Assembly (NCBI RefSeq): GCF_020687685.1
Contig: NZ_JAJEWM010000001.1
Span: 1,054,001-1,118,000 of the forward strand
Direction: 5' to 3'
Length of the DNA: 64,000 bases
Source of the DNA: Tessaracoccus sp. OS52
GTDB lineage: Bacteria; Actinomycetota; Actinomycetes; Propionibacteriales; Propionibacteriaceae
Position numbers and translations under genes: made by a program. Of the stretch, positions 54 through 5,911 are shown piece by piece; position 1 is the stretch's first letter; each line of letters begins with the position of its first letter. The notes beneath the pieces are model-generated. The model was given only the letters and a program-made list of their open reading frames with translations. It ran no database searches and was not told where the DNA came from.

Positions 54-467
54 GTGAGCGTGGCTGAGGGTCACGATGGGGCTGACCTCCTGGGGCTGGT
101 ACCCGGGCAGATCGTCCAGGAGATCGGCTGGGACGACGACGTCGACGCGGATCTGCGGGACGACATCATGGACATCATCGACGGCGACATGGTCGAGGAA
201 GCCGTCGAGGCAGTCGACGTGGTCCTCCTGTGGTGGCGAGAGGACGACGGTGACGTGGTCGACGGGCTGGTCGATGCCCGAACGGACCTGGCTCGTGATG
301 GCTACATCTGGCTGCTGACGCCCAAGGTGGGGCGTCCGCAGTTCATCGAGCCGGCCGCCATCGCCGAGGCCACCACCACTGCCGGGCTGCAACTGACCCG
401 CACCGCCAACGTCAGTCCTGACTGGCAGGCGCACAAGGTGGTTCCGCCGAAGACAGCGCGTCGTTGA
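54..467 (+). CDS. DUF3052 family protein
   Basis: This 137-residue acidic protein matches what I remember of the actinobacterial DUF3052 family, whose members open with a Gly-Leu-x-Pro-Gly-Gln-x-Val-Gln-Glu-Ile-Gly-Trp-Asp stretch; here it is at about residues 13-26. No catalytic motif, signal peptide or membrane segment is visible, so it is probably cytoplasmic. The function of the family is not established. The start is GTG at 54, and the family motif lies close enough to the N terminus to support it. The gene ends 37 bases before the phosphofructokinase gene on the same strand, so the two may be co-transcribed. Confidence 0.85.
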   Translation: MSVAEGHDGADLLGLVPGQIVQEIGWDDDVDADLRDDIMDIIDGDMVEEAVEAVDVVLLWWREDDGDVVDGLVDARTDLARDGYIWLLTPKVGRPQFIEPAAIAEATTTAGLQLTRTANVSPDWQAHKVVPPKTARR

Positions 468-504
468 CCAGTCCCATCCACAGCTGAACAGCCAGGAGCG
501 TCAC

Positions 505-2712
505 TTGCCTCGTATCGGAGTGCTCACTTCAGGAGGTGACGCACCCGGTATGAACGCCGCCGTGCGCGCCATCACCCGGGCGGCCATCCACGATGACGCC
601 GAGGTCTACGCCATTCGCGAGGGCTGGCAGGGTGCCGTCTCCGGTGGCGACCACATCGTCCGGCTGGGCTGGAGTGACGTGTCCGGGATCCTGAGCAAGG
701 GCGGCACGGTCATCGGGACCGCCCGGTCGTCGGAGTTCCGCAACCGGGACGGTCAGCGAACGGCTGTCAAGCATCTGGTGGAGAGCGGCATCGACCGGCT
801 CATCGTGATCGGCGGCGACGGCTCCCTCACCGGCACCCGTGAACTCAGCCTGGGTTGGACGGACCTGCTCGCAGAGTTGGTGGCCTCCGGGGAGTTGACC
901 CAGTCGCAGGCGGAAGCGTACCCGGCCCTGCGTGTGGTCGGCCTCGTCGGCAGCATCGACAACGACATGGTCGGAACCGACATGACCATCGGAACCGATT
1001 CCGCCCTCCACCGGATAACCGAGGCGCTGGACGCCATCAGCTCCACCGCCGAGTCCCATCAGCGCACGTTCATCGTCGAGGTGATGGGACGGCGTTGCGG
1101 TTACCTGGCGCTGATGAGTGCCATCGCCGGCGGCGCCGACTACACCTTCCTGCCCGAGTCCCCGCCCCGCGAGGGTTGGGAGGACCGGATGGTGGAGGTC
1201 CTCCGCCACGGACGAGAGGCCGGGCGGCGCGACTCCATCCTCATCGTCGCCGAGGGAGCTGCGGACAGGGAGGGCCATCCCATCACCGCGGAGCGGATCA
1301 AGCAGATCCTCGCCGAGCGCGCGGGCGAGGACGCCCGCATCACCATTCTGGGACATGTGCAGCGCGGCGGGGTGCCGAGCGCCTACGACCGCTGGATGGC
1401 GACGGTCTGCGGGGTGGAGGCGGTACGACAGGTGCTGGCCGCCCAGCCCGGAGATGAGCCCGTGCTCGTGGGCATGCACCGCGACGCCGTGCGCGCCGTC
1501 CCGCTCATCGAGGCGGTTGCAGCCACCCGCGCGGTCGCCGACCACATCGAGGACGGGGACTACGACGCCGCCGTCGGGGCCCGGGGCCATGGCTTCCAGA
1601 CGATGATCCAGATCTACCGCACCATCACCGAGGCCCGGCCAACAGTGGTGGATCCGCAGGTCTCGCGCCGGATCGCCGTGATGAACGCAGGAGCGCTGGC
1701 GCCCGGCATGAATCCGCTCGCACGTGTCGCCGTGCGCACCGGCATCGACCTGGGCTACCACATGATGGCCGTGCACGGAGGCGTGCCCGGGCTCATCGCG
1801 GGGAACGTGTCCGACCTGGCCTGGGCCGACGTCGAGGGAATGGCACACACCGGAGGAGCCGATCTGGGAACCCGCCGCTACGTCCCCGACGAGAAGGACC
1901 TGTACGCCATCGCTCGGCAGATCGAGGAGCACCGGATCGACGCGATGCTCGTCGTGGGCGGGTTCCACGCCTACGCGACCGTGGACATGCTCGAGCGCGA
2001 GAAGCGGCGCTACCCCGCCTTCGACATCCCCATCGTCGTGGTCCCGGCGAGCATAGACAACAATCTCCCCGGGTGGACCATGGCGGTCGGTGCGGACACA
2101 GCACTCAACACCGTCGTGCGCTCGATCGACATGGTGCGGATGTCGGCGTCGGCGTCCCTGCGGGCCTTCATCGTCGAGACCATGGGCCGCGGCTGCGGAT
2201 TCCTGCCGTTGCTCGGCGGCATCGCGGGGGGTGCGGAGAAGGCCTACCTGCCCGAACTGGGCATCACCCTGAGCGAATTGGAGCAGGACATCGCGGCACT
2301 CGTCGACGCCTTCGACACCGGCCGCAGCTTCTACCTCGCGGTAGTGGGGGAGGGCGCCAGCGAGTACTACACCACTGACGTGCTGCGCCGCCTTTTCGAG
2401 GCCGAGGGCAAAGGCAAGTTCACCGTCCGGGACAGCGTGGTGGGCCACGTGCAGCAGGGTGGGGCCCCGTCCCCCTTCGACCGGATCAACGCGACCCGGC
2501 TGGCGTGGAGTGCGATCCAGCACCTCGACAAGCAGTTCAAGGCCGGCCGCGCCGGGTACTTTGCGGCCTCGGTGGACGCCGAGGGCTACTTCGCTCCGTT
2601 GCGTGACATCACCGACGGCATGGACTGGGAAAGGCAGCGCCCCTACGAGCAGTGGTGGCTGGGGCTGCGCCCCGTGTTCGAGCAGTTGAGCCGCCGCCCC
2701 GGCCAGGACTGA
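505..2712 (+). CDS. 6-phosphofructokinase, tandem eukaryotic-type (PFK-1-like)
   Basis: It phosphorylates fructose 6-phosphate in glycolysis. At 735 residues it is twice the usual bacterial length and holds two PFK domains in tandem (about 1-390 and 391-735). The N half keeps the catalytic motifs: TSGGD near residue 8, GGDGS at 103-107 (Gly at the position typical of ATP-using enzymes) and SIDND at 150-154. The C half is degenerate: GGFHA at 485-489 replaces GGDGS, and SIDNN at 516-520 replaces SIDND. It keeps QQGG.PSPFDR and ends with EQWWLGLRP. From memory, both halves follow animal muscle PFK-1 in order and wording, including the N-half insertion before GLVGSIDND. By analogy the C half may be regulatory. 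The start is TTG at 505, after CAGGAG at 492-497. The stop abuts the stop of the convergent lactonase gene with no gap. Confidence 0.93.
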   Translation: MPRIGVLTSGGDAPGMNAAVRAITRAAIHDDAEVYAIREGWQGAVSGGDHIVRLGWSDVSGILSKGGTVIGTARSSEFRNRDGQRTAVKHLVESGIDRLIVIGGDGSLTGTRELSLGWTDLLAELVASGELTQSQAEAYPALRVVGLVGSIDNDMVGTDMTIGTDSALHRITEALDAISSTAESHQRTFIVEVMGRRCGYLALMSAIAGGADYTFLPESPPREGWEDRMVEVLRHGREAGRRDSILIVAEGAADREGHPITAERIKQILAERAGEDARITILGHVQRGGVPSAYDRWMATVCGVEAVRQVLAAQPGDEPVLVGMHRDAVRAVPLIEAVAATRAVADHIEDGDYDAAVGARGHGFQTMIQIYRTITEARPTVVDPQVSRRIAVMNAGALAPGMNPLARVAVRTGIDLGYHMMAVHGGVPGLIAGNVSDLAWADVEGMAHTGGADLGTRRYVPDEKDLYAIARQIEEHRIDAMLVVGGFHAYATVDMLEREKRRYPAFDIPIVVVPASIDNNLPGWTMAVGADTALNTVVRSIDMVRMSASASLRAFIVETMGRGCGFLPLLGGIAGGAEKAYLPELGITLSELEQDIAALVDAFDTGRSFYLAVVGEGASEYYTTDVLRRLFEAEGKGKFTVRDSVVGHVQQGGAPSPFDRINATRLAWSAIQHLDKQFKAGRAGYFAASVDAEGYFAPLRDITDGMDWERQRPYEQWWLGLRPVFEQLSRRPGQD

Positions 2713-3705
2713 TCAGACGAAACGCGCCCAGCGGGCCTTGGCTCCCACGGTGGTCCGGTCCAGTTCCACCAGCGAACCGTCCTCAGAAACTCGGTAGAGC
2801 ACCGCATCTGGCGAGCGTTCGCCGACGGCGACCACCAGGGCCTGGTCCGGGGAGACGCCGAAACCGCGGGGCTGCTCGGGCACCTTGGTGATGGCGCCGA
2901 CCTCGCCGAGCCGACCGTCGCGCCCGATGCGCACCGACGCGATCGTGGAGGCCGTCCGCTCGGAGCACAGCAGCCAGTTGCCCGCGACGTGCACGTCGGC
3001 TCCCCAGCGGAGGTGTTCTGCCCGAGGGTCGGCGCCATAGCGGCTGTGGGCCAGGTTCGCGTCCGGGTCGTCGAAGCGGACCGCCTCGGCGCGGCTAAGG
3101 GTGGCGTCGGCGGCGACGTCGAAGCGGATGGCCTCCGCGGAGAACTCGGTCACCAGGTAGGCGCCATGCTCGGACAGCACGAGGTGGCGGGGCCCACTGC
3201 CGTCGGGTGCGGCGACGCTGGGAGGGTCCAGCGGGGTAAGCGTGGCTTCCGGACCGAGCCGGAACTGCGCGACGACGTCTTGGCCAAGGGATGCGACGTA
3301 GGCCACGTCGCCCTCAGCCACGACGCAGTGCGCGTTGGCGAGTTCGTGTCGGCTCGGCGCGTCGCCGAGCACGCCGTCGATGACCGGCCACGCCGTGGCG
3401 TAACCCTCGTGGTACGACGCGCCGGCCAGGACCGTGCCGCCATGGGCGAGAGCAAGGTAGACCATGGCGCCCGCGTCATGCCGACGGGAGACCTCTGAGA
3501 GTCTCCCTGTCTCCCGGTCGAGGCTGAGGGTCACGACGGCGTCCTCGGTGGCGACGTGGACCAGGTTCCGGTCGGCGTCGAACGCGAAGGCGTTGCAACC
3601 GTTGCCGACGGGGGAGTCAGTCAGCCGCTCCAGCGTCTCGCCGTCCTGGCGGAGCGTCGAGATGGATCCATCACCTGCATTGGCAACGAGTACGAGGTAG
3701 CTCAT
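2713..3705 (-). CDS. lactonase-family seven-bladed beta-propeller protein
   Basis: About 330 residues. The N terminus (SYLVLVANAGDGSIST) and repeated blades with short V-Y/H-V-A-S/T strands resemble the 6-phosphogluconolactonase-like Lactonase family (PF10282 type). No signal peptide is seen, so it is probably cytoplasmic. Members hydrolyse 6-phosphogluconolactone or are uncharacterised, so the pentose-phosphate role is an inference. An upstream in-frame ATG at 3735 exists. I prefer ATG 3705, because a TAGGCT -10-like hexamer sits seven bases before it and the conserved fold begins there. It is convergent with the phosphofructokinase, stop against stop. Confidence 0.8.
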   Translation of the reverse strand: MSYLVLVANAGDGSISTLRQDGETLERLTDSPVGNGCNAFAFDADRNLVHVATEDAVVTLSLDRETGRLSEVSRRHDAGAMVYLALAHGGTVLAGASYHEGYATAWPVIDGVLGDAPSRHELANAHCVVAEGDVAYVASLGQDVVAQFRLGPEATLTPLDPPSVAAPDGSGPRHLVLSEHGAYLVTEFSAEAIRFDVAADATLSRAEAVRFDDPDANLAHSRYGADPRAEHLRWGADVHVAGNWLLCSERTASTIASVRIGRDGRLGEVGAITKVPEQPRGFGVSPDQALVVAVGERSPDAVLYRVSEDGSLVELDRTTVGAKARWARFV

Positions 3706-3712
3706 GCGACTG

Positions 3713-3718
3713 AGCCTA
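3713..3718 (-). promoter_or_regulatory. -10-like hexamer for a leaderless lactonase transcript
   Basis: On the minus strand TAGGCT is followed by seven bases and then ATG at 3705, with no Shine-Dalgarno sequence. This is the arrangement expected for leaderless actinobacterial mRNAs. A convincing -35 box is not visible. Confidence 0.5.
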
Positions 3719-3762
3719 GCCGCCGTCGCTGACAAGTGCGGGTGCCGCGTGGCCAGGGGAGC

Positions 3763-4629
3763 TCAGCACAGGGGCAGAGCCACCCCGAACCCGACGCTGG
3801 CCTGGCACATCATGCCGGAGAGGTCGCTCCGGGCGCGGTCGCCAACGGGTACGGACTCCGGAATCGTGGTCCGCAGCACCAGCACATGGGCGTCGGCAGC
3901 CCGCCTCAGCAGGGTGAAGGAGACGGCGTTGGCGACACCATCGCTGGTCCGGACTCCGGCGAAGCCGCATGTGACGCCCTCGCCTGACTCTGGAGCGACG
4001 CCGACCGGGCGGGCCAACTGCTCGCTCGTGACGGCGAACTGCACCTTCTGTGCCGCGATGAGCGCGGCGCAGGATGCGGTCAGGTCCTGGTCCTGCAGCA
4101 GGGTAAGTGCCTGCAGCCTGGCATCGGTTCGCGTGTCGCTGAGCCGGACAACGCGTCGATCCTCCTCGATGAACTCGTCTCCGTATAGAACCCAGCCCTC
4201 CGGGGCCGTGAACTGGGTGTCGTTGAGGACGACGGAACCCGCGGGCGGCGCGGTGGAAGCGGGCGGGGACTCGGCGCCTGCGGAAGAGGGGGTGGCGCTC
4301 GCATTTGACGTCGTGCCTGGCGTGGGTGATTCAGCCGGTGCGCTGGGGTCCGGAGCGGGAAGCGGAGGGTTCGACGTCGCCGGGATTGGAGACTGGGACA
4401 CAGCCGGGGAAGGCGTGGGACTCGTCTGGCTCGGGCTGGACGTCGTCTGCTGTGGCGGTAGCGGGCTCGGCTGCGTGGTCGTGCTCGGCCGTGGCCCGAA
4501 CACCAGGTACGCGACCATCACGGTCAGCAGCGCGACGACGGAAGTTGCCAGCAGGAAGGCTCGCGGCCTGCCGCGCTGATCGCGCTCGTCGGGTTCGGGT
4601 GGGAGTGCCCGGCGCGGCTTGGTGCCCAT
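3763..4629 (-). CDS. membrane-anchored protein with Ser/Thr/Pro-rich linker
   Basis: Not recognised as a named family. With the start at ATG 4629 the protein is about 288 residues: a short basic cytoplasmic N terminus, one hydrophobic segment at about residues 25-46 (ending AYLVFG), a long Pro/Ser/Thr/Gln-rich stretch to about residue 130, and a folded C-terminal region presumably outside the cell. Several Cys residues in the C-terminal region could form disulfides. Actinobacterial proteins with this layout are often anchored surface or sensor domains, but the role here is unknown. An ATG at 4644 is an alternative start. It diverges from the ferredoxin-reductase gene with about 100 bases between the starts. 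Confidence 0.7.
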   Translation of the reverse strand: MGTKPRRALPPEPDERDQRGRPRAFLLATSVVALLTVMVAYLVFGPRPSTTTQPSPLPPQQTTSSPSQTSPTPSPAVSQSPIPATSNPPLPAPDPSAPAESPTPGTTSNASATPSSAGAESPPASTAPPAGSVVLNDTQFTAPEGWVLYGDEFIEEDRRVVRLSDTRTDARLQALTLLQDQDLTASCAALIAAQKVQFAVTSEQLARPVGVAPESGEGVTCGFAGVRTSDGVANAVSFTLLRRAADAHVLVLRTTIPESVPVGDRARSDLSGMMCQASVGFGVALPLC

Positions 4630-4735
4630 GACGCGCTCCTCCACTCACCGACTGCTACTTCCGATGACCGAGCCTACCCGCAGCCATCCGGCACTACGGT
4701 TGTGCCACGAGGACCTGATCAGCCGAGGAGGACCG

Positions 4736-5911
4736 ATGGACGAGGTGGAGCGCATCGTCATTGTGGGAGGCGGGCTGGCAGCGGCCAACGCCGTCGAGGA
4801 GTTGCGTGAACGTGGGTTCACAGGGTCCGTGACGCTCGTGGGTTCCGAGCAGCACGTGCCCTACGAGCGGCCGCCCCTGTCGAAGTCGGTCCTCCTGGGA
4901 AACGATCCGCCCGAGAGTGTGTTCGTCCACACGGCAGAGTGGTACGAGGAGCACGACGTGGAGCTCGTCCTGGGAACTGCGGCGTCCGCGATCGACACCG
5001 TGGACCAGACGGTGACCGTCGGGGCGAGGACGCTTGGGTACGACCGGCTCCTGCTGGCCACGGGGGCGATCCCGAGGAAGCTCCGGATGGCCGACGACTC
5101 GGGCGCCCCCGTCGCCTACATGCGGACGTTCGAGGACTCCCTGTCGCTGCGCGAACGGCTCTCGGGACATGTGCTGATCATCGGGGCCGGCTGGATCGGG
5201 TTGGAGGTGGCCTCGGCAGCTCGTCAGGCCGGGGCCGAGGTCACCGTCGTGGACCCCGCGGACGTGCCGCTGCAGAAGGTCCTGGGTGATGAACTGGGCG
5301 AGGTGTTCGCCGGGCTCCACCGCGACCACGGCGTCGACCTGAGGCTCGGCAGCGGCGTGGAGGGCATCACTCACGACGACGGTGTGACCCGGGTTCGCCT
5401 GTCCGATGGGCAGACCCTCGAGGTGGACCTGGTCGTGGTCGGGGTGGGTGTGGTTCCCGACGTCAGTCTCGCCGAGGCCGCAGGGCTTGAGGTGGACAAC
5501 GGCGTACTCGTGGATGCGACGTTGCGCACGAGCGATCCGCACGTGTGGGCGGCCGGTGACATCGCAAACCATGACCACCCGCTGCTCGGCAGGATCAGGG
5601 TGGAGCACTGGGACGTGGCCATCAACCAAGGCAAGCACGCGGCCCGCGCGATGCTTGGTTCGCAGCAACCGTACGAGGTGCAGCCCTACTTCTTCACCGA
5701 CCAGTACGACTGGGGGATGGAGTACGTCGGCCACGTCGGCGGCGAAGGTTATGACGAGGTGGTGCTCAAGGGCGAACCGGCCGATGGTCTGACCGCGTAC
5801 TGGATCCGGGACCAGAAGGTGCTGGCGGGGATGCACCTCAACGACTGGGACGCCATCGACAGGATCAGGGAACTGGTGGGCGGACCGGTCCCTGCTGGAG
5901 GGCTCGGCTGA
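4736..5911 (+). CDS. FAD-dependent ferredoxin reductase-type oxidoreductase
   Basis: A 391-residue flavoprotein that uses NAD(P)H to reduce a ferredoxin-like partner, as in rhodocoxin or putidaredoxin reductases. An FAD-binding GGGLAAANA motif is at residues 8-16, with the family segment VPYERPPLSK shortly after. A second Rossmann motif, GAGWIGLEVA, binds NAD(P) in the middle. AAGDIA precedes the C-terminal reductase domain, which carries the EHWDVAINQG segment. ATG 4736 follows AGGAGG by a normal spacing, so the longer reading from 4619 is rejected. No ferredoxin or P450 gene is nearby, so the partner is unknown. Its 3' end overlaps the convergent nucleotidyltransferase gene by 47 bases. Confidence 0.9.
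   Translation: MDEVERIVIVGGGLAAANAVEELRERGFTGSVTLVGSEQHVPYERPPLSKSVLLGNDPPESVFVHTAEWYEEHDVELVLGTAASAIDTVDQTVTVGARTLGYDRLLLATGAIPRKLRMADDSGAPVAYMRTFEDSLSLRERLSGHVLIIGAGWIGLEVASAARQAGAEVTVVDPADVPLQKVLGDELGEVFAGLHRDHGVDLRLGSGVEGITHDDGVTRVRLSDGQTLEVDLVVVGVGVVPDVSLAEAAGLEVDNGVLVDATLRTSDPHVWAAGDIANHDHPLLGRIRVEHWDVAINQGKHAARAMLGSQQPYEVQPYFFTDQYDWGMEYVGHVGGEGYDEVVLKGEPADGLTAYWIRDQKVLAGMHLNDWDAIDRIRELVGGPVPAGGLG

Follow-up and report, generated by a model that had tools for sequence, protein, structure and literature searches.

The window analysed here, a stretch of 64,000 nucleotides from Tessaracoccus sp. OS52, carries near its start the gene of a tandem, putatively ATP-dependent 6-phosphofructokinase (PFK), whose frame and translation were read from the window itself (Table 1). 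The gene sits on a contig of 2.02 Mb, in a genome with ratings of 100% for completeness and 0.3% for contamination. Upstream of it lies a gene resembling aceE (345 bits for the 294 residues in the window; the whole-protein cut-off is 860), and the 137-aa open frame between the two has no NCBIfam match at E 0.001. According to tblastn, this small frame is kept in all five closest loci (L096, L100, L111, L117, and L135), and aceE is kept in four of them, being absent from L100, whose flank is short. For the lactonase-like neighbour downstream, no match was found in the 124 loci tested, most of which have flanks of 1.5-3 kb. Contamination of the window by eukaryotic DNA was rejected because of the long contig, the genome quality ratings, the adjoining aceE-like gene, and the gene order common to close relatives. 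Two further PFKs are encoded in the same genome, namely L002 (420 aa), with the motifs GGGGT and PKTIDKD, and L004 (406 aa), which matches the pyrophosphate-dependent family PRK06555 at 731 bits.

Table 1. Features of the tandem PFK gene and its neighbours (positions in the window; PfkA numbers are those of Geobacillus PfkA, and counts are over 150 bacterial tandem PFKs)
Feature	Position	Strand	Remarks
137-aa open frame between aceE and pfk	54..467	+	Neighbour outside the enzyme; tblastn matches in five closest relatives
AGGAG, likely ribosome-binding site	494..498	+	Six bases ahead of TTG; sequence reading
Tandem, putatively ATP-dependent 6-phosphofructokinase	505..2712	+	Named by motif; 735 aa, TTG start
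N half, catalytic half, residues 1-387	505..1665	+	PfkA F6P-site residues kept; clusters with other N halves
GGDGSLTG donor motif, ATP type, residues 103-110	811..834	+	GGDG, not GGDD; Gly at PfkA 104 and 108
GSIDND, residues 149-154, catalytic Asp152 and Asp154	949..966	+	PfkA Asp127/Asp129 columns, 150/150 bacterial tandem N halves
C half, presumed regulatory half, residues 388-735	1666..2709	+	ATP-site residues lost, sugar-phosphate site largely kept; clusters with C halves
GGFHAY, decayed C-half donor motif, residues 485-490	1957..1974	+	Asp103 column substituted in C halves
SIDNN, changed C-half catalytic loop, residues 516-520	2050..2064	+	Asp127 kept; Asp129 to Asn
RAFIVETMGR, sugar-phosphate contacts kept, residues 553-562	2161..2190	+	Arg162 148/150, Met169 148/150, Gly170 150/150
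Glu616 (PfkA Glu222), sugar-phosphate contact kept	2350..2352	+	150/150
RDSVVGHVQQGG, residues 642-653, with Arg642, His648, and Gln651 of the presumed effector site	2428..2463	+	Arg243 column 150/150
6-phosphogluconolactonase-like protein	2713-3735	-	109 bits, cut-off 370; downstream of pfk
Ferredoxin reductase-like protein	4619-5911	+	329 bits, cut-off 450; downstream of pfk

The sequence-only reading had described the product as a tandem PFK carrying eukaryotic PFK-1 motifs and as animal-like, closer to human PFK than to bacterial PfkA, and both descriptions held. The protein contains GLVGSIDND, GTDMTIGTDSALHRI, SHQRTF, EVMGRRCGYLAL, GADTALNT, YYTTD, GKGKF, QQGGAPSPFDR, and QWWLGLRP, and PF00365 matches it in two stretches, i.e., two PFK domains in tandem. 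TIGR02478 (6PF1K_euk), the NCBIfam model of 'eukaryotic' PFK-1 with a cut-off of 708.4 bits, matches the whole protein at 916.8 bits over residues 3-731 and profile positions 2-742 of 744. The N half alone scores 544 bits with TIGR02478 versus 302 bits with TIGR02482 (PFKA_ATP), and the C half 356 versus 188 bits. On the whole protein, the single-domain PfkA model TIGR02482 also exceeds its cut-off (482 versus 371 bits), but these matches come from both halves, and a protein of 735 aa with two domains falls outside the one-domain PfkA class of about 300-320 aa. It is likewise outside the PPi-dependent PFKs, since it carries GGDG and GSIDND without GGDD or PKTIDxD and reaches only 60.6 bits with TIGR02477 (cut-off 588). 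A sequence search of the PDB gave 685 bits over 727 residues for human PFKP versus 223 bits for the best single-domain bacterial PFK, a gap which is partly due to the difference in length. The N half is 50.9% identical to the human N half and 43.0% to Geobacillus PfkA, and the corresponding values for the C half are 39.2% (human C half) and 33.4%. When superimposed on human platelet PFK, the predicted fold matches over 725 residues at 1.4 Å. The score, the two domains, the catalytic residues of the N half, the mammalian/yeast PFK-1 fold, and a C half that by its residues has a sugar-phosphate site without an ATP site all place the window protein in the TIGR02478 family.

The PfkA positions compared here include catalytic, ATP, and sugar-phosphate contacts. 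In all 150 bacterial tandem PFKs, the N half retains Asp127, Asp129, Arg162, Met169, Gly170, Glu222, Arg243, His249, and Arg252, and the window N half keeps Asp127, Asp129, Arg162, Met169, Arg171, Glu222, Arg243, His249, and Arg252. In the N-half donor motif, Asp103 is present in 148/150 and Gly104 in 150/150, and the window protein has Gly at 124. In the C halves, the Asp103 column is occupied by Trp (88), Phe (26), Leu (16), Tyr (14), and others (six), and Arg252 is replaced by Gln in 134 of the 150, as in all six eukaryotic C halves. The His249 column holds His in 126/150 and Pro in 21. All 21 C halves of Lentisphaeria have Pro at this position, which is mostly His in the remaining bacteria and in the six eukaryotic sequences, and the effector site of Lentisphaeria may thus be different.

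In parts of a 2025 superfamily review, GGDG is described as marking ATP-dependent enzymes, Gly at 124 being among the donor signatures, whereas GGDD and PKTIDxD mark PPi-dependent ones, the latter with an exception (PMC12203962). The window enzyme is predicted from its motifs to use ATP as phosphoryl donor. In the C half of the yeast and mammalian enzymes, the ATP pocket was lost and the sugar pocket became the fructose-2,6-bisphosphate site (PMC12203962). No 6-phosphofructo-2-kinase over the cut-off was found in 48 genomes bearing the tandem gene, by a search that had no positive control and in which the 14 control genomes also gave none; two of the 48 have matches below the cut-off, of 20-22 bits over about 30 residues. 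The window protein's own genome also yielded no fructose-2,6-bisphosphate synthase. Because of the result for the 48 genomes, we infer F6P or fructose 1,6-bisphosphate as the ligand, which would bind the candidate effector site of the C half and activate the enzyme. The N half would then carry out catalysis, and the C half would be a decayed active site turned into a sugar-phosphate effector site.

We collected 150 distinct bacterial tandem PFKs, mostly from Actinomycetota, Chloroflexota, and Lentisphaeria. In the genome surveys, a TIGR02478 score over the cut-off was taken as the mark of a tandem PFK; the draws partly overlap and include their seeds. In the family of the window, taken as Propionibacteriaceae because three proteins are identical to those of named members, 64 of 97 genomes exceed the cut-off. 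The draw from its phylum gave 25/396, that from the phylum of a Chloroflexi bin 19/201, and that from the class of a Lentisphaerae bin (here called Lentisphaeria) 20/148. Wider draws for sequences near the eukaryotes added nothing new: the phylum of the Lentisphaerae bin gave 15 of 288 genomes, which the class draw had already yielded, and the phyla of a Spirochaetia bin and a Cyclobacteriaceae bin gave 1/247 and 1/296, each being the seed itself. These two singletons are metagenome bins and could result from misbinning. None of 14 well-known prokaryote genomes used as a control reaches the cut-off. A scan over the genomes of 84,980 species returned at least 591 relatives, and the best 80 loci, whose choice leans toward yeast-like sequences as a yeast sequence stood first in the query, come from Actinomycetota (37), Chloroflexota (24), Pseudomonadota (4), Lentisphaerota (3), Cyanobacteriota, Bacteroidota, and Acidobacteriota (2 each), Myxococcota and Spirochaetota (1 each), and genomes without a phylum (4), the rarer phyla resting on few metagenome bins. 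The nearest relative of the window protein (77% identity) is from an uncultured Arachnia.

Within the family sample, the remaining 33 of the 97 genomes lack a match above the cut-off. In four of them (G010, G042, G076, and G077), the tandem gene is present as long fragments or as split frames, and the others listed have distant matches only, so much of the family seems to have lost the gene or never had it. In G076 (C1:3401697-3403885), the tandem PFK is present as two frames, which cover model positions 2-344 and 347-742 and part at the junction of the halves; this is either a frameshift or a true split.

To place the two halves, 51 tandem proteins (45 bacterial and 6 eukaryotic) were cut at window residue 388 and combined with 12 single-domain PFKs in a tree of 346 columns under LG+C20+F+G4. 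The 51 N halves group together (100/97), as do the 51 C halves (100/100), bacteria with eukaryotes in both cases, and the 12 single-domain PFKs make up a group of their own, apart from the tandem proteins (97/88). The five group labels need four changes, which is the minimum possible. Since N halves group with N and C with C, the fusion is older than the split between the bacterial and eukaryotic enzymes. One duplication-fusion made all bacterial and eukaryotic tandem PFKs, with no sign of repetition. The sequence-only reading had rightly seen a bearing on the eukaryotic duplication. Of the outcomes that it had named as speaking against itself, an independent fusion within ordinary PfkA was not seen in the phylogeny of either half, and the other held in part: relatives are common in the family, but the duplication is old and common to all. 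A local duplication in Propionibacteriaceae was rejected, as the halves cluster with all other N or C halves.

In 11 loci, nearly all of them from Chloroflexota (L059, L060, L076, L077, L088, L089, L131, L195, L199, L201, and L205), the tandem gene has a further PFK of about 360-380 aa close by, and L076 has two. This neighbour was considered as a single-half progenitor of the tandem gene in Chloroflexota and judged an unlikely one, as it reaches no more than 93-115 bits with the tandem profile.

The eukaryotic sample consists of six sequences, two mammalian and four yeast. In the concatenated tree, which was rooted on single-domain PFKs (outgroup rows carry one domain repeated twice), the Chloroflexota sequences L125 and L128 leave first, with the other 49 rows held together at 100/99, and L134 leaves next. 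The eukaryotic sequences form one clade (100/99) and group with Lentisphaeria at 95/91; the half trees give this group 57/65 (N) and 98/61 (C). The window protein is found among ten actinobacterial rows (99/90), not in the eukaryotic clade. The Accumulibacter tandem PFK stands beside Actinomycetota and Chloroflexota, which fits loosely with an earlier paper, part of which describes indications that Betaproteobacteria received PFK from Chloroflexi (PMC4502571). The sequence-only reading had proposed that the window's lineage is either the source of the eukaryotic enzyme or an offshoot of the eukaryotic duplication, and neither is favoured. A group of eukaryotes with the ten actinobacteria was rejected by the AU test (p 0.029), Lentisphaeria being nearer, and the rooted trees nest the eukaryotes in bacteria, partly through the three deep Chloroflexota.

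In a rival reading, eukaryotes and bacteria are sisters descended from one ancient tandem gene, with no transfer after the split. None of 200 bootstrap trees (0%) shows the bacterial N halves as a clade, and the same holds for the bacterial C halves; the 45 bacterial tandem rows as a clade were rejected on the full concatenated set (AU test, p 0.023). The sister reading draws support from the bacterial N halves alone, for which p was 0.071, and from the removal of three deep Chloroflexota and three other rows (L125, L128, L134, L123, L114, and L075), after which bacterial monophyly was not rejected (p 0.18, gap 5.4). The nesting of eukaryotes thus leans on the deep Chloroflexota rows; the group of eukaryotes and Lentisphaeria stays at 98/91 without the same six rows. 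Under LG+G4, the likelihood gap for bacterial monophyly was 51.1 in the real data and at most 0.93 in 40 null sets simulated with bacteria as a clade. Such a simulated likelihood-gap test trusts its model and is reputed to be liberal. Quick trees of the 40 null sets broke the bacterial clade in 12 and placed L125/L128 basally in 5, which makes topology by itself weak evidence. None of them placed eukaryotes with Lentisphaeria alone, and the real data under LG+G4 also lack this exact group: there the eukaryotes lie inside bacteria, with a Spirochaetia sequence nearest, and then Lentisphaeria with a Cyclobacteriaceae (Bacteroidota) sequence. With the rejection on the full set and the simulations against it, the sister reading is considered unlikely.

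A search for near-private substitutions tying the eukaryotes to one bacterial group gave no column for six of the seven groups compared, among them Lentisphaeria, and one weak column for the window clade. The eukaryotes probably lie inside the bacterial tandem PFKs, with Lentisphaeria as the candidate sister group.

The C-half residues were also compared with ancestral columns, defined as those at least 80% conserved in single-domain PFKs, over 156 tandem proteins in groups named after the trees had been inspected. Asp12, Thr156, and Arg252 are kept in the C halves of all four deep Chloroflexota proteins (L125, L128, L132, and L207) but are missing from the 152 others, including the six eukaryotic ones. 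At looser limits, the same four keep five ancestral columns in each half. For the eukaryotes, the count is one in the N half and zero in the C half, for Lentisphaeria one in the C half, for L121 and L158 four in the N half and one in the C half, and for the other actinobacterial groups none or one. The retention of the three residues is a sign, independent of any model, in favour of eukaryotes nested in bacteria, and the four proteins may be the least altered version of the fused enzyme.

In the published account, duplication and tandem fusion are tied to eukaryotic genes (PMC12203962; part of PMC2990764). If the duplication occurred in eukaryotes, the fused gene would have passed to bacteria, perhaps several times, which agrees with the patchy bacterial spread in the phylum, Chloroflexota, and Lentisphaeria draws and with an AU test left undecided without the six selected rows. 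However, the earliest branches in the rooted trees are bacterial, Chloroflexota alone among the 156 proteins keep the three ancestral C-half residues, and the eukaryotes form one clade beside the bacteria, not around them, which makes a eukaryotic invention quite improbable. Independent fusions of ordinary PfkA in bacteria and eukaryotes that later converged have nothing in their favour beyond the common two-domain layout and are hardly credible, given the grouping of N with N and C with C across both and an N-half insertion between GGDGS and SIDND that is common to the window protein, L125, L128, and human PFK and absent from Geobacillus PfkA.

Considering the above, the likely explanation is a tandem enzyme that arose by a single bacterial duplication, with animal and fungal PFK-1 as a branch acquired already fused. 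The bacterial family would have originated when a single-domain PfkA-like gene was duplicated and fused, the window protein would represent a separate actinobacterial branch of it, and animal and fungal PFK-1 would have been taken from bacteria ready fused. On balance, we also lean toward the view that PFK-1 was received duplicated, fused, and with an emptied second site that bound sugar phosphates, and that fructose-2,6-bisphosphate control then took over this bacterial site. Animal and fungal PFK-1 is the textbook case of a eukaryotic gene duplication creating new regulation. If the duplication was bacterial, bacteria had already fused the gene and lost the second active site before the fructose-2,6-bisphosphate signal arose, which would change the order of events for one of the best-known allosteric enzymes. 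Bacterial tandem PFKs could also serve as simple models for the control of the N half by the C half.

Previous studies have treated the fused PFK as eukaryotic (PMC12203962; part of PMC2990764). The 2025 review presents duplication and tandem fusion as a eukaryotic feature, and its sections 5 and 7 name no bacterial tandem PFK (PMC12203962), while the relevant passages of another paper cite frequent PFK transfer and contain nothing on the fused gene (PMC1665464). Among the titles and abstract openings listed by searches of open-licence PMC text, none states a bacterial origin of the fused gene. The family and its presence in Chloroflexota are already known: as described in part of PMC8004040, Chloroflexus aggregans encodes a PFK of 747 aa, Cagg_2702, that belongs to the eukaryotic superfamily (6PF1K_euk), with homologues in many Chloroflexota and not generally in many other bacteria, and its transcription was about 9 TPM versus 1312 for the single-length PFK of C. 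aggregans. The common single duplication and the rooted position of the eukaryotes are added here.

By this description, Cagg_2702 belongs to the same family as the window protein, in another phylum. Compared with eukaryotic PFK-1 (human PFKP/PFKL/PFKM and yeast Pfk1/Pfk2), the window protein is 46% identical to human PFKP, its genome gave no fructose-2,6-bisphosphate synthase, and its C half has Asp127 and Arg171, positions occupied by Ser and Gly in the six eukaryotic sequences. Single-domain PfkA of Geobacillus and E. coli has the same domain and the same active-site residues as the window N half, but consists of one domain of about 320 aa. The PPi-dependent L004, from the same genome and superfamily, differs from the window protein in having GGDDT and PKTIDND instead of GGDG and GSIDND.
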